This document shows, piece after piece, positions 7,684 to 36,151 of a stretch of 37,965 nt of DNA (position 1 is the stretch's first letter; each line of letters begins with the position of its first letter). Below the pieces are notes generated by a model. It ran no database searches. It was not told the DNA's origin and was given only the letters and a program-made list of their open reading frames with translations. The DNA comes from Thioalkalivibrio halophilus (lineage in GTDB: Bacteria; Pseudomonadota; Gammaproteobacteria; Ectothiorhodospirales; Ectothiorhodospiraceae): contig NZ_MUZR01000047.1 in assembly GCF_001995255.1 (NCBI RefSeq), positions 1 to 37,965 of the forward strand. Reading direction: 5' to 3'. Both the position numbers and the translations under genes were made by a program.

Positions 7684-9213
7684 ATGGCGGGGAAGCGGAG
7701 TCCGACGGTGGAACGGATCCTGCGCGGGCTGCGTTCGCGTTATCCCATCATCTACCTGCAGGGCTGGGACGAGGACCGCATCGAGCGGCTGTTGCAGCAG
7801 GTGGCCCGCAAGTACTACGGAGAGGAGGGACGTCTGCAGGTGTGGTCCGCCGCGCGCGGCTTTGCCGCACCGGAGGAGGCGGCTTCCGGCGCGGCGGTGG
7901 AGGCCGAGCCGGCCGTCCACGATCCGGAGGACGCGCTGGCGCGGATCGCGGGGCATCGTGATCCGCCGCGCATGAGCCTGTTCAAGGATCTGCCGGTGTG
8001 GTTCGACCAGCGCCCCGGGCTGGTGCGCGGGCTGCGTGATCTTTACTACGAGCTGAAAGGCACCAGCAATGTGGTGTTCGTCAGCTGCCCGCAGCTGCAT
8101 CTGCCGGACATCATCAAGAAGGAGATCTTCCTGGTCGACGTGGATCTGCCCACCGAAGAGGAGCTGCTGGAGTTCCTCGAGGGTCGTCGCGGCGCCGAGG
8201 CCCATTCGCGCGAGCTGCTGTTCCGTCTGGCGGCGGGCATGCGCGGGCTGTCGCTCAACGAGGCCGGCCACCTCGCCTCGCGCCTGCTGCGCATGCAGGA
8301 CGTCGACGAGGATACCCTGCTGCGCGAGGTGCAGGAGGAGAAGGGCCAGATCCTGCGCAAGGAGAGCGTGCTGCAGTTTTACCCGCCGCAGCGCTCGCTG
8401 GAGGACATCGGCGGTCTGGATGTGCTCAAGGAATGGGTCACCACGCGCGCCGACCTGTTCTCGGAAAAGGCCTACGAGGACGGCGTGCCGCTGCCCGCCG
8501 GGGTGCTGTTCATGGGGGTGTCGGGCTGCGGCAAGAGCATGGCGGCCAAGGCCATTGCGGCGGCCTGGGATCTGCCGCTGGCGCGGCTGGACATGAGTCT
8601 GGTGCTGTCAGGCAGTTTTGGTACGCCGGAGTACGCGTTCGCCCGCGCGACCCGCATCGCCGACGAGATCGCGCCGGTGGTGCTGTGGATCGACGAGCTG
8701 GAGAATGCCTTCGGCTTCGACTCCACCGGCAGCGGCGGTAACGTGAACATTTTCTCCAGCTTCCTGACGTGGCTGCAGGAGAAGTCGCCCAGGGTGTTCG
8801 TCGCGGCTACTGCCAATCGCATCGAGCTGATGCCGGCGGAGCTGATGCGCAAGGGCCGCTTCGACCAGCTGTTCTTCCTGGATCTGCCCAACGCCGACGA
8901 GCGCCGGGAGATCCTGGAACTGCACATTCGCCATCATGGTGGCGATCCGGACCAGTTCGACATGGGGTATCTCACCGCCACCACCAAGGAGTGGAGCGGG
9001 GCCGAGATCGAGCAGCTGGTGCGTTCGGCCCGCATCGAGGCCTACCGCGAGGGGCGGACGTTCAATCAGAAGGACATCATCCGGGCGGCGATCAGCACGG
9101 TCCCGCTGTCGAAGACCATGGTCGAGCAGATCCGTGAGCTGCGGAACTGGAGCTTCAAGCGTGCGGTGAATGCCTCGAAATCCGAGAGCAAGAAGAAGCC
9201 GGCCGGTTCCTGA
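7684..9213 (+). CDS. AAA-family ATPase, Ycf46-like
   Basis: This 509-residue ATPase resembles the Ycf46/'probable AAA ATPase' group of cyanobacteria, plastids and some proteobacteria. The N-terminal half (residues 1-240) has the group's typical opening (YPIIYLQGWDEDRIERLL) and a divergent domain ending QFYPPQRSLEDIGGLDVLKEWV. The C-terminal AAA module has Walker A GVSGCGKS at 278-285, Walker B VVLWIDELE at 332-340, a sensor-1 Asn in VAATANRIELMP and an arginine-finger region (RKGRFDQLFFLDLP), so it should be active. No FtsH-type protease domain follows. The ATG at 7684 has AGGAG six bases upstream. The cellular target is unknown; chaperone-like remodelling is an inference from fold. Confidence 0.88.
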   Translation: MAGKRSPTVERILRGLRSRYPIIYLQGWDEDRIERLLQQVARKYYGEEGRLQVWSAARGFAAPEEAASGAAVEAEPAVHDPEDALARIAGHRDPPRMSLFKDLPVWFDQRPGLVRGLRDLYYELKGTSNVVFVSCPQLHLPDIIKKEIFLVDVDLPTEEELLEFLEGRRGAEAHSRELLFRLAAGMRGLSLNEAGHLASRLLRMQDVDEDTLLREVQEEKGQILRKESVLQFYPPQRSLEDIGGLDVLKEWVTTRADLFSEKAYEDGVPLPAGVLFMGVSGCGKSMAAKAIAAAWDLPLARLDMSLVLSGSFGTPEYAFARATRIADEIAPVVLWIDELENAFGFDSTGSGGNVNIFSSFLTWLQEKSPRVFVAATANRIELMPAELMRKGRFDQLFFLDLPNADERREILELHIRHHGGDPDQFDMGYLTATTKEWSGAEIEQLVRSARIEAYREGRTFNQKDIIRAAISTVPLSKTMVEQIRELRNWSFKRAVNASKSESKKKPAGS

Positions 9214-26632: not shown

Positions 26633-27079
26633 TCACCAACTCTTGTAGGGCAGGAACTTGCCGTTCCAGGTGATCTTCACCCGATCCCCCTTCGGGTCCT
26701 CGACCTTGTCGATGTCCATGGTGAAGTCGATGGCGCTCATGATGCCGTCGCCGAACTTCTCGTGGATCAGCGCCTTCATGGTGTCACCGTACACGTTGAT
26801 CGCCTCGTAGAAGCGGTAGATCACCGGGTCGGTCGGGATGGTCTTGTCCCAGTGCTTGTGCGGGAAGGCCTGCAGGGCCTTCGACACGTCGGGGCCCAGG
26901 TCGAGAAACGCGGTGAGCCGGTCGGCCGCCTCGGCGTCGAGGTGATTCATGCCGTAGCAGGCCGAGGTCACGTAGACCTCGTGCAGGCCGGTGGCCTCGG
27001 CGATGCCGGCCCAGGTCGCGGACCGGCCCTCCTTGGCTTCGAGGATGGTGGCGGTCATTTCGGTCTTGCTGAGGGTCAT
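26633..27079 (-). CDS. cynS: Cyanate hydratase (cyanase)
   Basis: This 148-residue enzyme converts cyanate and bicarbonate to ammonia and carbon dioxide (through carbamate), detoxifying cyanate and supplying nitrogen. The length equals that of other bacterial cyanases. The N-terminal part is a helical DNA-binding-like fold (KEGRSATWAGIAEATGLHEVYVTSAC), and the C-terminal catalytic part has Arg89 and Glu92 (DPVIYRFYEAINVYG) and Ser115 (FGDGIMSAIDF), matching the E. coli active-site Arg, Glu and Ser. ATG 27079 has GGGAGG at good spacing. Upstream lie a sigma-54 promoter and an activator-type palindrome, so expression should depend on the neighbouring sigma-54 regulator. Confidence 0.96.
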   Translation of the reverse strand: MTLSKTEMTATILEAKEGRSATWAGIAEATGLHEVYVTSACYGMNHLDAEAADRLTAFLDLGPDVSKALQAFPHKHWDKTIPTDPVIYRFYEAINVYGDTMKALIHEKFGDGIMSAIDFTMDIDKVEDPKGDRVKITWNGKFLPYKSW

Positions 27080-27126
27080 GGATGGCCTCCCGGTTGGTGT
27101 CGGATCAGTGTTGCCACCCAATGCTC

Positions 27127-27142
27127 TGCAGATCCCGTGCCA
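27127..27142 (-). promoter_or_regulatory. Sigma-54 (-24/-12) promoter of cynS
   Basis: The minus strand reads TGGCACGGGATCTGCA: a perfect TGGCACG -24 element, with GG and GC separated by exactly 10 bases as RpoN requires. Transcription should start near 27117, about 38 bases before the cyanase ATG. The same -24 element occurs at two other promoters in this cluster. Confidence 0.85.
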
Positions 27143-27203
27143 GCTGGACGCCGTTCACCGGATCCGCTCCGGGACGGCCGCACGGGAGCACGGGTCGGGT
27201 GAG

Positions 27204-27254
27204 GCGGACACTTTGTCCGCTCCCGGTGCGGACAAAGTGTCGACAATGTCCGCA
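27204..27254. promoter_or_regulatory. Probable enhancer (activator-binding) palindromes upstream of cynS
   Basis: GCGGACACTTTGTCCGC at 27204-27220 is a 17-bp palindrome whose reverse complement recurs exactly at 32416-32432. A second, partial copy (GCGGACAAAGTGTC) is at 27228-27241; together they form a perfect 14-bp inverted repeat (27207-27220 and 27228-27241) with a 7-bp centre. GTGTCGACAATGT at 27237-27249 also recurs at 32392-32404. The block lies about 90-135 bp upstream of the predicted cynS transcription start, the usual range for a sigma-54 enhancer, and just after the regulator gene stop. Confidence 0.75.
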
Positions 27255-27262
27255 CCGGGGTC

Positions 27263-28921
<1,659 letters not shown>

Positions 28922-28933
28922 GCCCGGTGTACA

Positions 28934-28949
28934 TGCAGAAACCCTGCCA
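28934..28949 (-). promoter_or_regulatory. Weak -24/-12-like sequence at the regulator start
   Basis: The minus strand reads TGGCAGGGTTTCTGCA, with correct GG-N10-GC spacing and one mismatch in the -24 element. Transcription from it would begin about two bases before the regulator ATG at 28921, leaving almost no leader. It may be an autoregulatory site, a promoter for leaderless mRNA, or chance. Confidence 0.3.
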
Positions 28950-29070
28950 GTGTCAGGGAGCCGGGCACGGCGCCATGCAGCGCCGGGTTGGTCCGGCGGT
29001 GGGGCCCCGTAATGCACGCGAATGGTGCAATCCTGCGATATCCGTGCTTCGGCGGTGCAGGTGGAAAGGG

Positions 29071-29098
29071 AAAAAGGCCCGGCCGCGAACGGCCGGGC
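29071..29098 (-). terminator. Rho-independent terminator of the importer operon
   Basis: On the minus strand a perfect 8-bp stem (GCCCGGCC / GGCCGGGC) with a 6-base loop runs into a T-rich tail (CTTTTTCCC). It lies about 30 bp past the permease stop, so the importer operon ends here and the regulator gene must have its own promoter. Confidence 0.85.
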
Positions 29099-29129
29099 AG
29101 ATGGAGGGAGCAGGGAGGGAGGGGGTGGT

Positions 29130-29969
29130 TCAGCTTTCGGCGTGGTAGCTGCTGCGCCGGATCAGCCGCACGCAGATGGCGTCCAGCATATAGCCGATCA
29201 GGCCGATCACCAGTACGAAGGCCGCCAGTTTGTCGTACTCGAGCGTGTCGCGGGCGTCGTTGATGGCGTAGCCGAGCCCCGAGGTCACGCCCAGGTATTC
29301 GGCCGGCACCAGTACGATCCAGGCCACGCCCACCGCCAGGCGGATGCCGGCGAACACGTCCTGGGCGATCGCGGGCATCACGATGTAGCGCAGCGTGTGG
29401 TAGGGGTTGGCGCCCAGGTTGTTGCCCACCTTGAGCCACATCGGATCGATGCGCTGCACGCCGTGCGCGGTGGCGTAGGTGATCGGCCAGACCGCGGCGA
29501 TGGCGATCAGGAAGACGATCGCCGCGTCCCAGGTGGCGAAGGCCAGCACCGCGATCGGCATCCACGCCAGCGGCGAGATCATGCGCAGGAACTGGAACGG
29601 TACGTGGGTGGTTTCGCGCAGCACGTTGAAGTAGCCGATCATCACGCCCAGCGGGACGCCGATCAGGATCGCGTAGAGCAGGCCGAAGCCGACCCGGTGC
29701 AGGCTGGATTCGATCGGCGACCAGACCTGCCCGGAACTCACGATGTCCCAGAAGGCGGTCAGCGTGGGCCCGGGGGCGAAGCTGGCGAAGGCCATGGTGT
29801 CGGGGTTGTTGGCGATGGCCCAGCCACCCCACCACCACAGGACCAGCAGTCCGGCGATGCCGAGCAGCGGGTACTGCAGCCGCCGGCGCAGGTGGTTCGC
29901 GGTGCGCAGGGAGGCCCACCCCCATTCCCCGGGGGTGGCCGGCAGGTCGAATGTGGCGTCACGGTTCAT
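29130..29969 (-). CDS. ABC transporter permease, nitrate/cyanate/taurine type (NrtB/CynB-like)
   Basis: This 279-residue inner-membrane permease has about six spans and a binding-protein-dependent transport domain. The ATPase-coupling loop is NLGANPYHTLRYIVMPAIAQDVFAGIRLAVGVAWIVLVPAEYLG, a typical NrtB/SsuC/TauC pattern. Its ATG overlaps the stop of the binding-protein gene by 4 bp. In this location, with cyanase in the same regulon, cyanate is the natural candidate substrate, but nitrate, bicarbonate or another small anion cannot be excluded by sequence. It is last in the operon and is followed by a strong terminator. Confidence 0.9.
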   Translation of the reverse strand: MNRDATFDLPATPGEWGWASLRTANHLRRRLQYPLLGIAGLLVLWWWGGWAIANNPDTMAFASFAPGPTLTAFWDIVSSGQVWSPIESSLHRVGFGLLYAILIGVPLGVMIGYFNVLRETTHVPFQFLRMISPLAWMPIAVLAFATWDAAIVFLIAIAAVWPITYATAHGVQRIDPMWLKVGNNLGANPYHTLRYIVMPAIAQDVFAGIRLAVGVAWIVLVPAEYLGVTSGLGYAINDARDTLEYDKLAAFVLVIGLIGYMLDAICVRLIRRSSYHAES

Positions 29970-31249
29970 AGCTTTACGACCTCCTCGCGGGCGAACGGCG
30001 AATCCATGTCCACGCCCGGGGCGTTGTGCCAGGCGGTGTATTTCTCCATGGCCTTCTCGACGAACTCGTAGTTGACCAGGTCATCGGCCACTTCCTGCGG
30101 GTCCAGGCCCGAGAGGAAGGTGGTGTCGCCGCCCACCAGGGTCTCGTTCATCGCCCCGACCAGCATCTTCGTCGCCGACGGGTAGGGCCACGGGGAGAAG
30201 TCGATGCGGCCGTTGCCCCAGTCGGCGTGGCGGATCGCGCCGGAGTCGATGTAGGTGCTGTCGTCGGCGTAGTTGGTCATCGCGCGTTCGACCACCCCGG
30301 ACGGCATCGGCAGATAGCCCTTGCCGTCACGCGACAGCAGGTGGGCGACCTCTTTCTTGTTGTCCTGAATATGCCCCTGGGCGCGGACCACGGCGTTCAT
30401 GGTCTTCTGCGTCCATTCGGGCTGGCGGTCGGTGAGCGTCTCGTTCATGCACACCACGCAGCAGGGGTGGTTCTTCCAGATGTCGCCGGTGAAGCGCAGC
30501 AGATTGCCGTGGGCCAGCATCTCGCCGGCGGCGTTGAAGGGCTCGGCGACGATGAAGGCGTCGATCGAGCGCGCGGCCAGGGCCGGCGGCATGTCCGGCG
30601 GCGGCATCAGCATCAGGTTGACCTCGTCCGGGGCCAGATCGTCGCCCTGATCCTTGATCACCGGTTTCAGGCCGGCGTCGCGCAGGGCCATCTGCATGAC
30701 GACGTTGTGCATGGAGTACCAGTAGGGCACGGCCACGCTCATGCCACCCATGTCGGAGAAGTCGTTGACCTCCACGTGGCGGCCGGTGACCACCGCCGAA
30801 CCGTTGGTGTGCGCCCAGGACATGATCTTGGCCGGGAAGTTGTTCTGGTAACGCATCCACAGCGGGATCGGCTTGAGCAGGTGGACCAGGTTGAAGCGGT
30901 TCGCCGCGAAGGATTCGATCAGCGGCGACCAGCCGCGGATCAGCTGCGGTTCGGCCACCTCCAGGCCCTCGTCCTCGAAATAGCCCTCGGAATGCGCGAC
31001 CAGCAGGGCCGCGGCATCGGTGATGGGGATGTAGCCGATGCGCACGACGCCGTCGAAGTCGTCCACTTCGGGGTCGACGCCACCCAGGTCGGGTTGCTGG
31101 GCGAGCAGCGAGCCCGGGGCGGTCAGGCCGGCGCCGGCGACCAGCGAGCCGGCCGCCGCCGAGCGCAGGAAGGTGCGGCGGGACAGGCTGCCGCCAAGGA
31201 TGCGGTCGAGTTCCGCGTCGATGTCGTGGTGGTTGTCGCAGTTGCACAT
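29966..31249 (-). CDS. Tat-exported ABC substrate-binding protein, NrtA/CmpA/CynA type
   Basis: This 427-residue protein has a twin-arginine signal (SRRTFLRSAAAGSLVAGAG, about residues 23-42), so it is exported folded. The mature part is an NrtA-like two-lobe binding protein (VRIGYIPITDAAALLVAHSEGYFEDEGLEVAEPQLIRGW near its start). NrtA relatives bind nitrate, bicarbonate or cyanate; the cyanase context favours cyanate. An unusual feature is the segment before the twin arginine, MCNCDNHHDID, which could bind a metal. GAGAGGAA lies just upstream of the ATG. It is the middle gene of an ATPase - binding protein - permease operon. Confidence 0.88.
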   Translation of the reverse strand: MCNCDNHHDIDAELDRILGGSLSRRTFLRSAAAGSLVAGAGLTAPGSLLAQQPDLGGVDPEVDDFDGVVRIGYIPITDAAALLVAHSEGYFEDEGLEVAEPQLIRGWSPLIESFAANRFNLVHLLKPIPLWMRYQNNFPAKIMSWAHTNGSAVVTGRHVEVNDFSDMGGMSVAVPYWYSMHNVVMQMALRDAGLKPVIKDQGDDLAPDEVNLMLMPPPDMPPALAARSIDAFIVAEPFNAAGEMLAHGNLLRFTGDIWKNHPCCVVCMNETLTDRQPEWTQKTMNAVVRAQGHIQDNKKEVAHLLSRDGKGYLPMPSGVVERAMTNYADDSTYIDSGAIRHADWGNGRIDFSPWPYPSATKMLVGAMNETLVGGDTTFLSGLDPQEVADDLVNYEFVEKAMEKYTAWHNAPGVDMDSPFAREEVVKL

Positions 31250-31285
31250 GGTGATGTTCCTCTCGGGTAACGGGCTAGGGACGGT

Positions 31286-32146
31286 TCAGGCCGCGCGAAT
31301 TGCGCGACGGGCGGGGGCGGATCCGGATGCGGCGGGATCGTCGGCTTCGGGGGCTTCGGCGGATGACGACGTGTCATCGGTCGGTTCGGGGCGCGAAGCC
31401 GGGTGGCGTGTCGCGCCAAAGAACTCCATCAGCTCGGCCTTCAGTTCGGTAAATCCGGGGCTGGTGCGGTCGCGTGGATGCGGCAGGTCCACCTTGAGCT
31501 GGTGCTGCAGCGTGCCCGGGTTGGAACCCATCACGACCACGCGATCGGCCATGGCGACGGCCTCTTCGATGTCATGGGTGACGAACACCACGGTGATGCC
31601 GCGATCCCGCGACAGCCGCACGACCTCGTCCTGCAGCTCGGTCTTGGTGAACGCATCCAGGGCGGAAAACGGCTCGTCCAGCAGCAGGAGTTCCGGGTCG
31701 GTTGCCAGGCTGCGCGCCAGGGCCACGCGCTGCTGCTGGCCACCGGACAGCGACTGCACGTTGACCTCGGCCTTTTCGGCCAGGCCCACCGTCTCCAGCA
31801 GGGCGTCGACGCGCTTGTTCATGCCTTCCTGACGGCCCTGGAAGATCAGGCCGAGGGAGGCGTTGCGGCGCACGGTCATCCACGGGTAGAGCGAGGGCTT
31901 CTGGAACATCATGTTCCAGCGCGGGCTGGGCTTGATGACCTGGTGGCCGTTTATGCGTACCGCCCCCTCGCTGGGGATCAGCAGGCCCGCGAGCATGTGC
32001 AGCAGGGTGGATTTCCCGCAGCCGCTCTGCCCGATCAGGGCGATGGTCTCGCCGGGGCTGACGGTCAGCTCGATGTCCTGGAGCGTCGGGTCCGTCTGTT
32101 TCGGATAGTGATGCGTGATGTAGTCGATGGAGATGGCTGCGCCCAT
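31286..32146 (-). CDS. ABC transporter ATPase, NrtD/SsuB/CynD-like
   Basis: This 286-residue ATPase energises the importer. Walker A GQSGCGKST is at residues 39-47, the signature is LSGGQQQRVALARSL, Walker B is LLLLDEPFSALD and the H-loop is VFVTHDIEEA. After the core (to about 245) a low-complexity tail rich in Pro, Ser, Ala and Asp runs to the end, longer than in most relatives. ATG 32146 has AGAGGAG at ideal spacing; the open frame further upstream is not used. It is the first gene of the operon, about 56 bases downstream of a predicted sigma-54 transcription start. Confidence 0.92.
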   Translation of the reverse strand: MGAAISIDYITHHYPKQTDPTLQDIELTVSPGETIALIGQSGCGKSTLLHMLAGLLIPSEGAVRINGHQVIKPSPRWNMMFQKPSLYPWMTVRRNASLGLIFQGRQEGMNKRVDALLETVGLAEKAEVNVQSLSGGQQQRVALARSLATDPELLLLDEPFSALDAFTKTELQDEVVRLSRDRGITVVFVTHDIEEAVAMADRVVVMGSNPGTLQHQLKVDLPHPRDRTSPGFTELKAELMEFFGATRHPASRPEPTDDTSSSAEAPEADDPAASGSAPARRAIRAA

Positions 32147-32211
32147 GGCGATGCTCCTCTTCCGGGAACGTTGATGGGCCGTGGTTCTCACGGCGCGCTC
32201 ACAGGAACCCT

Positions 32212-32227
32212 TACAAGAGGCGTGCCA
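32212..32227 (-). promoter_or_regulatory. Sigma-54 promoter of the importer operon
   Basis: The minus strand reads TGGCACGCCTCTTGTA. The -24 element TGGCACG is perfect; the -12 element is TTGT, so the usual GC reads GT. Predicted start is near 32202. Shared enhancer sites lie about 190-230 bp upstream, between this promoter and the divergent one. Confidence 0.65.
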
Positions 32228-32386
32228 GATGCAGAACGGCGGCGGACCGGGCGCGAAACGGGGTGGCCCCGGAGGGGGTGAAACGGCTGCAGGACGCGGA
32301 TCAGCGGGGACCAGGCGGGGGTCACGGGCCGGCGCGGGCGGTGACGCCGGGTGGCGGTGGCCGACGTTTCGTCGTGGTGCAACGGG

Positions 32387-32440
32387 GCATTGTGTCGACA
32401 ATGTTGGTGCAAAGTGCGGACAAAGTGTCCGCTTTGTCCG
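32387..32440. promoter_or_regulatory. Probable enhancer palindromes shared with the cynS region
   Basis: GCGGACAAAGTGTCCGC at 32416-32432 is the exact reverse complement of the palindrome at 27204-27220. GTGTCGACAATGT at 32392-32404 is an exact copy of 27237-27249 and sits inside a CATTGT ... ACAATG inverted repeat. CTTTGTCCG at 32432-32440 adds a further half-site. The block centres about 120-150 bp upstream of the predicted start of the OsmC-like operon. Confidence 0.75.
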
Positions 32441-32517
32441 ACTGCGGGTCAGGGCAATCTCCCCGGATGGACTGCCGATCGGCCGAAAACCGCGGCATGG
32501 CGCCATCGGGGGCAACA

Positions 32518-32533
32518 TGGCACGGCTTCTGCA
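32518..32533 (+). promoter_or_regulatory. Sigma-54 promoter of the OsmC-like/rubredoxin operon
   Basis: TGGCACGGCTTCTGCA on the plus strand: a perfect TGGCACG -24 element and CTGCA -12 element with GG-N10-GC spacing, nearly the same as the cynS promoter. Predicted start is near 32544, about 55 bases before the first ATG (32599). Confidence 0.85.
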
Positions 32534-32598
32534 ACGGGACTGGCGACCCGGCCACCAAGGTTCGGGCATTGACCAAACAACCGTCAGGAGACCTGATC

Positions 32599-33147
32599 AT
32601 GTCGACCGCAGAAGCCACCACCACGATTTCCATGAATGCCCTGGATCCCATCGACCAGGACGGGCTGAACAAGCTCGCCGACAAGGGCAAGTCCAACCCC
32701 GACAGTGTCGTGACCCTCAAGGCGCGCACCGTGTGCGAGGGCAAGTTCCGCAACCTTACCTACGTGCGTGACCTCGATGCCCACGTGATCGACGAGCCCC
32801 CGCATCTGCTGGGCGACGACACTGCGCCCAACCCCTCGGAGGCCGCGCTGGCCAGCCTGGGGGCCTGCCTGTCGGTGGGGATGCATGCCAACGCCATCGA
32901 TCGCGGCATCACCCTCACCAAGCTGGAGCTTTCGCTGGAGGGTGACATCAACGTGACCGCGGTCTGGGGCGTGGGCGACACCGACAAGTCCAAGCGCCTG
33001 GGCTTCACCGACATCCGCGTGAAGGTCGACCTCGAAGGCGATGCCAGCGAGGAAGAGCTGAAGGAACTGGTGGCGCACGCCGACTTCTGGTCGCCGGTCG
33101 CCAACACCATGCGCAACCCGGTCAACGTGGCCGTGGAAAAGGCCTGA
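32599..33147 (+). CDS. OsmC-family protein
   Basis: This 182-residue protein belongs to the OsmC/Ohr superfamily, which includes thiol peroxidases. The family helix NPSEAALASLGACLSVGMHANA carries Cys90, at the place of the peroxidatic Cys. The second family Cys, usually in a C-P-V-x-N-T stretch, appears as Ser here (HADFWSPVANTMRNP), so the resolving Cys is missing; another Cys (46) lies in the N-terminal part. It may be a non-peroxidase member or use another thiol. AGGAG precedes the ATG. It is first in a four-gene operon with a sigma-54 promoter. Confidence 0.82.
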   Translation: MSTAEATTTISMNALDPIDQDGLNKLADKGKSNPDSVVTLKARTVCEGKFRNLTYVRDLDAHVIDEPPHLLGDDTAPNPSEAALASLGACLSVGMHANAIDRGITLTKLELSLEGDINVTAVWGVGDTDKSKRLGFTDIRVKVDLEGDASEEELKELVAHADFWSPVANTMRNPVNVAVEKA

Positions 33148-33164
33148 GGCCGAGGAGACCCGTA

Positions 33165-34301
33165 ATGCTCGAGACCCGTACACAGCAAGCGGGGGAGGCG
33201 CCGGTCTCCGGACCGGCGCCGGCCGAGGACGGGCTGCGGGAACTGGTGGCGGGGCAGCTTGCCCCGCTCACCGGCCGCATCGACCGTGAAGGCCTCTACC
33301 CCGAAGAATTCCTGCGCGAGGCTGGCCAGCTGGGAGCGTTTCGTTCGCATCTGGCGAGCCAGAACCCGGCGGGCAAGGCCGATCTGGTGTCCGCGATCCG
33401 CGCCGAGGAGGTGATCTCCGCCGAATGCATGACCACCGGATTCGTTGCCTGGTGCCAGAACGCCTGCGCCTGGTACGTGGAGAACAGCGATTCCTCCACG
33501 CTCAAGCGCGAGGTACTGCCGAAGCTGGCCAATGGCGAGGCGTTCGGCGCCACCGCGCTGTCCAATCCGATGAAATGGTTCGCCAGCATCGAGGAGCTCA
33601 AGCTCTCGGCCGAACGTGTGGAGGGCGGCTACGTGGTGTCCGGGGCGCTGCCGTGGGTGTCCAACCTGGGCGAGGACCACTACTTCGGTGCGATCTTCCG
33701 TACCACGGATGACAACCCGCGTCCGCTGATGGCGGTCATCAACTGCGCCGACCCCGGCTTCAGCCTGACCCCGTGCCCCGAGTTCATCGCCCTGGAGGGT
33801 TCGCGCACCTTCGGCTGCCATTTCGACCGGGTGTTCGTGCCCGACGAGCACGTGCTGGCGGATCCGCTGCCGGAGTACATCCAGCGCATCCGTCCCGGTT
33901 TCGTGCTGCTGCAGATGGGCATGGGCCTGGGCCTGATCGAGGGCTGCATCAACACCATGCACGAGGCCAACGAGACCCTGTCGCACGTGAACGGTTACCT
34001 CGACGACCAGGCGGGCGAGCTGGAGGAGGTCCTGGAAGACGCACGCCAGGCGACCTATGCCCTGGCCCGCGATCCCTTCGACACCAGCGACGCGTTCTTT
34101 GCCGACGTGCTGCAGATGCGTCTGACCGGTTCGGAGCTGGCGCTGCGTGCTTCGCAGTCGGCGTTGCTGCACACCGGGGCGCGTGGCTATCTCGCCAGCG
34201 CGGCGGCCCAGCGCAAGCTGCGCGAATCCTATTTCGTGGCCATCGTTACGCCTGCCATCAAGCACCTGCGCAAGGAGCTGGCGCGTATCCACGCCCACTG
34301 A
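33165..34301 (+). CDS. Acyl-CoA dehydrogenase-superfamily flavoprotein, substrate unknown
   Basis: This 378-residue protein has the acyl-CoA dehydrogenase layout: an N-terminal helical domain ([17 protein letters not shown]), a central beta domain ([42 protein letters not shown], the flavin-side motif) and a C-terminal helical bundle ([21 protein letters not shown] ... [22 protein letters not shown]). The catalytic Glu of classical members, in a YEGTSQ-like motif, is not found; the aligned stretch is [12 protein letters not shown]. That absence is common in superfamily members that work as flavin monooxygenases or other oxidases. Encoded with rubredoxin and its reductase, it may receive electrons from them. 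A strong GAGGAG site precedes the ATG. Confidence 0.8.
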
Positions 34302-34322
34302 CCGGCGCCCGGAGGAGACATC

Positions 34323-34706
34323 ATGCTGGAAACCACCACCAAACTCGATGCCGAAGCGGCCGTGGCGGCCCTGAAAGAGGCCGTGGAGGCGCAGGGCCTG
34401 CGCGTGGCCGCCGAGATCAACGGCCAGGCCAACGCGGCGATGATCGGGGCCGAGGTCCCGGTCGACCGTATCCTCGAGGTCTTTCATCCGCGCTATGCCC
34501 TGCGCGTGTGGGAGGCCTGCAAGCCCGCGGGGATCGACATCCCGCTGCGCATCCATGTCTGGAGCGACGGCGAGCAGCTGCATGTAACGGCGCGGCGCCC
34601 GTCGGAGGTCTTCGCCCCCTGGGGCAGCGCCGACCTGGATGCCCTGGGCGCGGAGCTGGATCCGCTGTTCGAGGCCATTGTCGCCAGTCTGCCGGAGGTT
34701 GCGTGA
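34323..34706 (+). CDS. DUF302-family protein
   Basis: This 127-residue protein carries the DUF302 core: [14 protein letters not shown], then [42 protein letters not shown], matching the family's pattern of a fixed 'AGID-PL' turn followed by a two-strand VWxDxDGxxxV motif. The family's function is not known. GGAGGAG lies before the ATG, and its stop overlaps the ATG of the rubredoxin fusion gene (TGATG), so the two are translated together. Two short genes of this operon (OsmC and DUF302) therefore accompany the flavoprotein and electron donor. Confidence 0.78.
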
Positions 34707-36151
34707 TGTCTGCTGAAGCCGAAACCGAATATCGACGCTACATCTGCCGCGTGTGCGGCTACATCTACGACGAGGCGAAGGGCGACCCGGACTCGGGTCT
34801 GCCACCGGGGACCCGGTTCGAGGACATCCCGGACGACTGGTACTGCCCCGACTGCAACGTCACCAAGGCCGATTTCGACCGCCTGCAGCCGCGTGCCGAG
34901 GACCCGGTCGAGGCACAAGCGGCGCAGGCCTGGCGCACCCCGCTGGCGGACGACCCGGATGCGGTGGTGGTCGTCGGCGGCGGCATGGCCGGCTGGGCGA
35001 TGGCCGAGGAACTGCGCGCCCGCGACCCGGAGCGCAGTATTCGTCTGGTGACCGGGGATCGCGGCGATTATTACACCAAACCGCGGATCTCCACGGCCTG
35101 TGCGCGCGGCGTGGACCCGGACGACCTGATGGAGGAATCCGGCGTGGCGCGGGCCGCGCGCCTGGGCGTCGAGCTGCTGCCGCACGTGCGCCTGCTGGAC
35201 ATCGACCGTGAACGCCGGCGCCTGATCACCCCGCGCGGCGGCATTCCCTACGGCGATCTGGTGCTGGCGACCGGCGCGAGCCCGATACGGCTCGACATTC
35301 CGGGCGACGGACCCCCGCCGCGGGTGGTGAACACCCTGGATGACTACCGCGCGCTGCGTGCGGAACTGCAACCCGGGGCCCGCGTGGCGATCGTGGGCGC
35401 GGGGCTGGTCGGCAGCGAGCTGGCCGATGATCTGGCGGCCGGCGGCTATTCGGTGGATCTGATCGAGATGGCCGAGCGCCCGCTGGCGCGGCTCGCGCCG
35501 CCCGAGCTGGGGGATGACCTGGCGGCTGCACTGGCGCAGCGCGGGGTCGCCCTGTACACCGGGACCTCGGTGGCTTGTCTGCAGGCCTTGCCGGCGGCGG
35601 GCGAAGGTCCCGTGGCGTCCCGGCTGAAACTGGCCGGTGGCGAGACCCTGGAAGCGGACGTCGTGATTACCGCCCTCGGTTTGCGGCCGAACATCGACGT
35701 GGCTGTCGGGGCCGGCCTGGACTGCGGGCGCGGCATCCGGGTGGATGCCACGCTGGCGACCTCCGATCCGGCGATCCGCGCCCTCGGGGACTGCGCCGAA
35801 TACGACGGCGTCCTGCGCCCCTACGTGGGTACGCTGCGGGCCCAGGCGGAAGTGATCGCCGATCGCCTGGCCGGGGGAACGGCGCGCTATGAACCGGACG
35901 CCGGCACCGTGCAGGTCAAGACCACCAGCCTGCCGATGCAGGTCTGCCCGCCATCGGCCGCGGATGCGGCCACCGGTGAGTGGGTGCTCGTCGGGGGCGA
36001 TGCCGACGGCCGCCGGATGGAGTTCCATGCCAACGGCCGTCTGGCGGGCTTCGCCCTGTCCGGGGCCCTGACCCGCGAGGCCGGGCCGATGGAGGCCCGG
36101 CTGGGCGAGGCGGTGACGCAGCCGGAGGTTCGTGCGCGGATGGCGTCCTGA
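34706..36151 (+). CDS. Rubredoxin fused to NAD(P)H:rubredoxin reductase-type FAD oxidoreductase
   Basis: This 481-residue single-chain electron carrier and reductase has a rubredoxin domain at residues 9-57, with iron ligands Cys14, Cys17, Cys47 and Cys50 (CRVCG ... [11 protein letters not shown]). The rest is a two-dinucleotide-domain flavoprotein: FAD site [17 protein letters not shown] (GxGxxG-type at 91-96), NAD(P)H site [17 protein letters not shown] (231-238) and a C-terminal FAD motif ([11 protein letters not shown]). It should pass electrons from NAD(P)H to its own rubredoxin and on to an acceptor, plausibly the flavoprotein encoded two genes earlier. It is last in the operon. Confidence 0.93.

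Follow-up and report, generated by a model that had tools for sequence, protein, structure and literature searches.

A nine-gene cluster of Thioalkalivibrio halophilus, found at positions 26633-36151 of a 37,965-nucleotide stretch of DNA (contig NZ_MUZR01000047.1, positions 1 to 37,965; hereafter the window), appears to place cyanase (CynS), the enzyme converting cyanate to ammonia and CO2, under common control with an ATP-binding cassette (ABC) importer and with a divergent operon, here called the module, which encodes an OsmC-like protein, an acyl-CoA dehydrogenase (ACAD)-like flavoprotein, a DUF302 protein and a rubredoxin fused to a rubredoxin-reductase-like flavoprotein (RbxR). To judge from the regulatory sites that they have in common, cynS, the importer operon and the divergent operon form one regulon, and the association of the divergent operon with cynS is real and conserved across phyla. 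As to its function, it is tentatively proposed that this is a nitrogen-scavenging regulon generating intracellular cyanate from a cyano compound that bears sulfur, thiocyanate being the most likely one.

Organization and Common Control of the Cluster

The window contains three matches to the sigma-54 promoter motif TGGCACG-N5-TGYW versus 0.10 expected, a number reached by none of 100 shuffled sequences (0/100), and the three sites lie upstream of cynS, of the importer operon (in which the ATPase gene comes first) and of osmC; both -24/-12 sites between the divergent operons align across the window and nine other Thioalkalivibrio intergenic regions. The enhancer block is less strictly conserved than the promoters, being exact in 4/9 sister regions and degenerate in the remainder. 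Its pattern, GGACAA-N10-TTGTCC, is exact at 32418-32439, between the divergent operons, and carries one mismatch at 27230-27251, before cynS; in the whole genome (2.87 Mb, 97 contigs) it is found once exactly and seven times when one mismatch is tolerated, a reversed-pattern control giving two, and at two mismatches there are eight places in the window versus 0.73 expected, six of these elsewhere in the window. An exact enhancer stands at the matching position in six other genomes (L003, L032, L036, L037, L038 and L044), L004, L005, L006, L010 and L018 being duplicates of genomes already counted. The matching promoters and palindromes that an earlier, sequence-only reading of this DNA had noticed around the genes, and the single sigma-54 regulon deduced from them, are both borne out by these shared sites. 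The shorter palindrome GGACA-N3-TGTCC, present without mismatch at two places in the window (in the cynS-upstream and the divergent-operon intergenic regions) and at 12 places genome-wide, was dropped as a conserved footprint and is kept merely as a description, the sister loci conserving GGACAA-N10-TTGTCC instead.

All the genes of the earlier list (cynS, the activator, the importer and the divergent osmC, ACAD-like, DUF302 and rubredoxin-reductase genes) were recovered by family search in Pfam and NCBIfam. The features are given below, gene starts having been placed by hand.

26633-27079, minus strand: cynS, cyanase (PF02560, E 4e-38, and CYNS_N; NF002773/PRK02866 and TIGR00673 above cut-off)
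27127-27142, minus strand: predicted sigma-54 promoter (-24/-12) of cynS, TGGCACGGGATCTGCA (motif scan)
27206-27251, no strand: putative enhancer block 5' of cynS (palindrome at 27206-27218 plus GGACAA-N10-ATGTCC at 27230-27251)
27263-28921, minus strand: GAF/AAA+/Fis-type sigma-54 activator (GAF, Sigma54_activat and Fis HTH domains; module-specific clade in the regulator tree)
29130-29969, minus strand: ABC importer permease (PF00528, BPD_transp_1)
29966-31249, minus strand: NrtA/SsuA-like binding protein, class A (PF13379, NMT1_2; twin-arginine-type N-terminus, by eye)
31286-32146, minus strand: ABC importer ATPase (PF00005, ABC_tran; best NCBIfam match ntrCD, sub-threshold)
32212-32227, minus strand: predicted sigma-54 promoter of the importer operon, TGGCACGCCTCTTGTA (motif scan; aligned in nine sister loci)
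32418-32439, no strand: putative shared enhancer between the divergent operons, GGACAAAGTGTCCGCTTTGTCC (sole exact place in the genome; exact in six other genomes)
32518-32533, plus strand: predicted sigma-54 promoter of osmC, TGGCACGGCTTCTGCA (motif scan; sister-locus alignment)
32599-33147, plus strand: one-cysteine OsmC-like protein, Cys90 (PF02566, 8e-22)
33165-34301, plus strand: ACAD-fold flavoprotein, the defining gene of the module (Acyl-CoA_dh_N only, 1.3e-10; model and fold search)
34323-34706, plus strand: DUF302 protein (PF03625, 3e-8)
34706-36151, plus strand: RbxR, rubredoxin (residues 11-57) fused to an NADH:rubredoxin-reductase-like flavoprotein (PF00301, PF07992 Pyr_redox_2, PF18113 Rbx_binding)

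The next gene downstream of the cluster is glgB, on the opposite strand.

Linkage of the Module to Cyanase across Genomes

A family scan of the genome collection (tblastn, E <= 1e-3) returned at least 577 relatives of the ACAD-like protein, some of which may be more distant ACADs; the best 80 of these, taken with up to 10 kb per side (some shortened by contig ends), come from gamma-, alpha- and betaproteobacteria, Acidithiobacillus and cyanobacteria. Halomonas-group bacteria and Thioalkalivibrio are among the carriers of the module, and Sorokin et al. are said to have described in 2001 the use of thiocyanate nitrogen by heterotrophs of the Halomonas group and by autotrophic Thioalkalivibrio. 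Family counts were made with hidden Markov models (HMMs), gene clustering having merged or split some families: at the 80 loci OsmC is found at 77, RbxR at 58, cynS at 55, the activator at 50, rhodanese at 29 and DUF302 at 27. The three loci devoid of OsmC are L056, L057 and L083, in the last of which the contig begins at the ACAD gene; as for the 25 loci with no cynS in the stretch, 22 of the genomes have cynS further away and three (L061, L062 and L098) have none.

In samples picked independently of the ACAD family, cynS is present in 13/14 ACAD genomes versus 38/355 others at the level of the class (n=369; Fisher 2e-11), in 13/16 versus 42/333 at that of the phylum (n=349; Fisher 4e-9), and in 16/16 versus 3/14 within the genus, where one of these three is interrupted by an in-frame stop; the window's own genome is counted in each sample, the samples overlap, and the Fisher values ignore kinship, relatives being non-independent. 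The ACAD gene and cynS share a contig and are no more than about 10.5 kb apart in 11/13, 10/13 and 16/16 of the respective pairs. The dependence is one-way, cynS frequently occurring without the ACAD gene and the latter seldom without cynS, and at 20 control cynS loci taken from ACAD-free genomes neither OsmC, nor module-type rhodanese, nor DUF302 was found (0 each). The outcome that the sequence-only reading had named as refuting its idea, a four-gene operon usually far from cynS in related genomes, did not turn up in this neighbourhood search.

ACAD homologues also occur on plasmid records (L132-L137, from Pseudosulfitobacter, Marinobacter, Acetobacter, Moraxella, Methylocystis and Caballeronia), with cynS in 3/6 of the stretches, and therefore the module probably moves between hosts; the annotated plasmid records inspected give the module genes no names beyond acyl-CoA dehydrogenase and OsmC family protein. 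A homologue with 45% identity was seen in Neisseria gonorrhoeae (L158; H19/H20), where the PLSDB gene table has no gene at that place but merely 17 features for the entire record. A DUF1348/SnoaL-like family, assigned by a Pfam run on L109 alone (8442-8939), lies near osmC in 9/80 loci, 6 of them cyanobacterial.

The Flavoprotein and Its Electron Partners

The ACAD-like proteins constitute a separate family: among 144 relatives, members share at least 49% identity and the next proteins at most 27%, and the NCBIfam matches of the window's protein are far below the cut-offs. Its AlphaFold2 model (pLDDT 92.2) has a predicted ACAD fold: the 50 best PDB chains in Foldseek reach TM-scores of about 0.75-0.86, with butyryl-, short-chain and isovaleryl-CoA dehydrogenases among them. 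Acyl-CoA dehydrogenases have a catalytic Glu, which we take to lie in a C-terminal motif of the YEGTSE type; here its place is occupied by Thr362, a residue invariant across 54/54 rows, in a register obtained by ungapped extension past the HMMER alignment. In view of this replacement, the protein is not called an acyl-CoA dehydrogenase by function here. While the fold is common to the whole superfamily, the module protein is set apart by Thr362, by its sub-cut-off NCBIfam matches and by its rubredoxin or ferredoxin neighbours. The rubredoxin-reductase fusion is found at 48/80 loci and a 2Fe-2S ferredoxin gene at L097 and L119; RbxR was not seen at any of the 11 cyanobacterial loci, where photosynthetic ferredoxin could be the electron source.

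The OsmC-Like Protein and the Sulfur-Handling Partners

Cys90 of the OsmC-like protein is invariant in 77/77 aligned rows, and residues 165-166, which we take from the family motif to be the place of the second cysteine in OsmC/Ohr, are Ser-Pro, leaving one conserved cysteine. The protein therefore has the OsmC domain and the first active-site cysteine in common with the OsmC/Ohr hydroperoxide reductases, but not the second (resolving) one. OsmC is near the ACAD gene at 77/80 loci versus 0/20 cynS loci without ACAD. Purely as conjecture, a single-cysteine acceptor would fit the capture of oxidised thiocyanate, the release of cyanate and the formation of a protein-bound persulfide. At L122, L123 and the Moraxella plasmid locus L135, an AhpD/CMD-type protein replaces OsmC.

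A tandem rhodanese accompanies the module at 29/80 loci (one a fragment) and in 9/20 and 1/6 of two further locus sets; its active-site cysteine lies in the six-residue loop CFKGAR, invariant in 28/28 rows, and PF00581 was matched for L065. At L124 and L125 the gene beside RbxR matches the dioxygenase part of Blh (NF040641, E 1e-116 and 2e-114), with the N-terminal transferase part absent and scores under the NF040641 cut-off; the weak dioxygenase HMM matches of L090 (83 bits) and L137 (67 bits) were excluded from the counts. In L132 the annotated order is OsmC - ACAD - sulfurtransferase. The rhodanese and the Blh-like dioxygenase suggest that the reaction of the module releases sulfane sulfur, and they strengthen the earlier idea that the divergent operon may oxidise a nitrogen- or sulfur-containing compound toward cyanate. 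A DsbA-family protein at L088 and a glutathione transferase at L068, though occasional, would also be compatible with thiol chemistry.

The Activator and the Importers

The best NCBIfam match of the window activator is NifA, below cut-off; the NifA identity was rejected, given that it is cynS and the module that these promoters serve. In the regulator tree, whose controls are the regulators beside 6/20 control cynS genes, with CynF itself not included, the window activator belongs to a clade seen only at ACAD loci and the six control regulators fall outside it, L047, L055 and L125 each holding one regulator of either clade. Identities amount to 33-37% with the control clade and, inside its own clade, to 43-55% for eight listed members and up to 86% for sister strains. 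We infer that cyanase was brought under the module's own regulator.

Two classes of binding protein are distinguished at the 80 loci: class A, to which the window's protein belongs, at 39 of them and class B (CynA/NrtA-like) at 45, with both at 12 loci at least, the split resting on gene clustering that misses a class-B protein in L039. At those both-class loci that show cynS, it is class B that adjoins it; L055 shows no cynS. No class-B genes occur in the window cluster, to which the search for them was confined. In sister strains a CynABD-like transporter lies between cynS and the activator (L033, 686-3963), and is absent at 27080-27262 of the window; G012, the nearest relative, shares the short cynS-ACAD spacing, 6.4 kb versus about 9.5 kb in most others. 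Since a separate CynABD-type transporter adjoins cynS in the sisters and is absent here, the label of cyanate uptake given to the window importer by the sequence-only reading is probably a mislabel, and the identity as a cyanate importer was rejected from the class A/B split; the class-A importer more plausibly serves the substrate of the module. Among the PDB relatives of the class-A binding protein, which include NrtA, CmpC and a bicarbonate-binding protein, transporters of nitrate and bicarbonate predominate. A class-A motif, W-x-N-HPCCV-x-C, is nearly invariant (W258, N260, H261, P262, C263, C264, V265 and C267, each in at least 95% of 40 rows); we know of no such motif in NrtA-type proteins. 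Genes of the formate/nitrite-channel (FNT) family occur at L093 (12570-13475), between RbxR and cynS, and at L047 (14590-15447), just past cynS, and are possibly cyanate or hydrosulfide channels.

A Proposed Pathway and Its Alternatives

From the gene set, the promoters and enhancer, the cross-phylum conservation, the one-way dependence on cynS and the sulfur and electron-transfer neighbours, all of them read from DNA, we infer a substrate, the use of O2, a direction of electron flow, a nitrogen signal and the first four steps of a pathway. Thiocyanate, the best single guess as substrate though a tentative one, would be imported by the class-A ABC importer (step 1); the ACAD-fold flavoprotein would oxygenate its sulfur with O2 to a hypothiocyanite-like species (step 2), electrons passing from NADH to rubredoxin reductase, to rubredoxin and to the flavoprotein, or through the 2Fe-2S ferredoxin in some relatives; Cys90 of OsmC would trap this species as Cys-S-SCN, and the attack of water at the carbon would yield cyanate and a persulfide (step 3); the sulfane sulfur would then go to rhodanese or to the Blh-like sulfur dioxygenase, a housekeeping sulfur pathway taking this role in sulfur oxidisers like Thioalkalivibrio (step 4); finally, CynS would convert the cyanate to ammonia and CO2 (step 5). 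The GAF/sigma-54 activator would drive all three promoters under nitrogen limitation.

Several observations weigh against this proposal. Oxygenation by a rubredoxin-fed ACAD-fold enzyme has, to our knowledge, no citable precedent. The RbxR and activator HMMs each also match 6/20 control loci, and therefore neither family is specific to the module; ACAD genomes lacking cynS are 1/14 in the class sample, 3/16 in the phylum sample and 3/25 among the genomes whose ACAD locus has no cynS in the stretch. Two of these cynS-free genomes are those of L122 and L123, and the stretch of L135 has no cynS either; the AhpD-type branch may therefore have a different function, and its substitution for OsmC was given little weight as support for a thiol role. 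The window cluster contains no rhodanese or dioxygenase gene, and 51/80 loci have no rhodanese in the stretch; the importer split is not clean, 33/80 loci having class-B binding proteins only; and strict sigma-54 sites were found in 31/45 loci (L032-L076), often not before osmC. Moreover, in passages of PMC6504805, Guyparkeria SCN-R1 is reported to have cyanase operons yet no measurable cyanase activity, and to possess the thiocyanate enzyme TcDH as well, and cyanase is called an unreliable marker of thiocyanate degradation.

Cyanide comes next in the ranking of substrates, as an unlikely one. The flavoprotein would then be a cyanide monooxygenase and rhodanese, the classic cyanide-detoxifying enzyme, a parallel detoxification arm making thiocyanate; the addition of one oxygen atom to cyanide directly yields cyanate, the redox partners suit a monooxygenase and the dependence on cynS is accommodated equally well. 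This explanation, for which the chances seem slim, leaves the Blh-like sulfur dioxygenase of L124/L125 and the near-constant OsmC unexplained, however; neutral HCN requires no ABC importer, and, in the passages of PMC6627978 concerned, the model strain uses cyanide via NitC with no cyanate intermediate. It is likewise improbable, to a similar degree, that another sulfur- or nitrogen-containing small molecule ending as cyanate (an isothiocyanate, an organic thiocyanate, a thiocarbamoyl or a formamide-type compound) is the substrate, the ACAD-fold protein being an oxygenase or a rubredoxin-linked dehydrogenase: the class-A binding protein resembles SsuA- as well as NrtA-type families and the accessory genes are variable (DsbA-family at L088, an annotated 2-hydroxychromene-2-carboxylate isomerase at L132, glutathione transferase at L068, DUF1348 at L109), but the occurrence of the module in lithoautotrophs, cyanobacteria and heterotrophs that are not related to one another points to a simple and widespread anion, and most structures related to the binding protein are those of nitrate or bicarbonate transporters.

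Very unlikely is a purely protective operon in which OsmC/AhpD and rubredoxin reductase carry out peroxide or thiol repair during nitrogen starvation or cyanate use, with no cyanate being made. OsmC and its AhpD-like stand-ins (L122, L123 and L135) do belong to peroxidase-type families, and the title of PMC12431658 ties rubredoxin reductase to stress protection in another bacterium; against it, none of the ACAD-free cynS loci (0/20) carries OsmC or DUF302, and therefore the use of cyanate alone needs neither, while the possession of an importer class and an activator clade of its own implies a substrate.

Relation to Known Systems and Significance

The closest described arrangement is perhaps the cynFABDS operon of Pseudomonas pseudoalcaligenes CECT5344 (PMC6627978), with which the window cluster has in common, as far as the cited passages go, a cynS with a sigma-54 promoter, a Fis-type sigma-54 activator and an NrtA-type importer; in that system CynF is essential and the operon is repressed by ammonium, a repression merely expected for the window cluster. 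The latter differs in that its regulator is not of the control-cynS clade (the sequence of CynF itself was not compared), in that its importer is of class A, with no CynABD directly beside cynS, and in the addition of the osmC-acad-duf302-rbxR operon.

Two thiocyanate enzymes, TcDH and thiocyanate hydrolase, are described in the cited part of PMC5328954. TcDH is a copper enzyme delivering electrons to cytochrome c for energy, as stated in passages of PMC5328954, PMC5744179 and PMC6504805; its cyanate pathway, known from the same genus, would likewise give cyanate and sulfane sulfur from thiocyanate, whereas the module has a flavoprotein with partners of the NADH/rubredoxin kind, is under sigma-54 control and lies no farther than about 10.5 kb from cynS in 16/16 ACAD genomes of the genus. 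TcDH is not among the genes of 26633-36151, all assigned to other families, the rest of the genome not having been searched for it; the ScnC/nitrile-hydratase alpha family (PF02979) was matched in 0/30 genomes of the genus, the window's included, and in no control genome either. In 2017 no close TcDH relatives were reported outside Thioalkalivibrio (PMC5328954, passage cited); relatives were later noted in Guyparkeria SCN-R1, which carries the module (L072), and in Thiohalobacter (PMC6504805, likewise).

No paper joining cyanase with these module genes was found in searches of the open-licence PMC literature, and as far as those searches reach, the earlier statement that no pathway with this gene set has been described stands. 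It is a possibility, a rather doubtful one, that the module is a third thiocyanate route, in which a ferredoxin- or rubredoxin-fed, ACAD-fold flavin oxygenase and a one-cysteine OsmC act through a protein Cys-S-SCN to yield cyanate and a protein persulfide, and that would supply nitrogen in proteobacteria and cyanobacteria. Nitrogen use from thiocyanate is reported in several bacteria, including heterotrophs of several genera (PMC5328954, in part), while TcDH is known from few genera (PMC5328954 and PMC6504805, in part); the module is widespread, with at least 577 relatives in the family scan and the best 80 in proteobacteria and cyanobacteria. If cyanate is indeed made from thiocyanate or cyanide, the module would provide a genetic marker for this activity, the nitrogen and sulfur cycles would be extended, and a family now misnamed as dehydrogenases would be reassigned.

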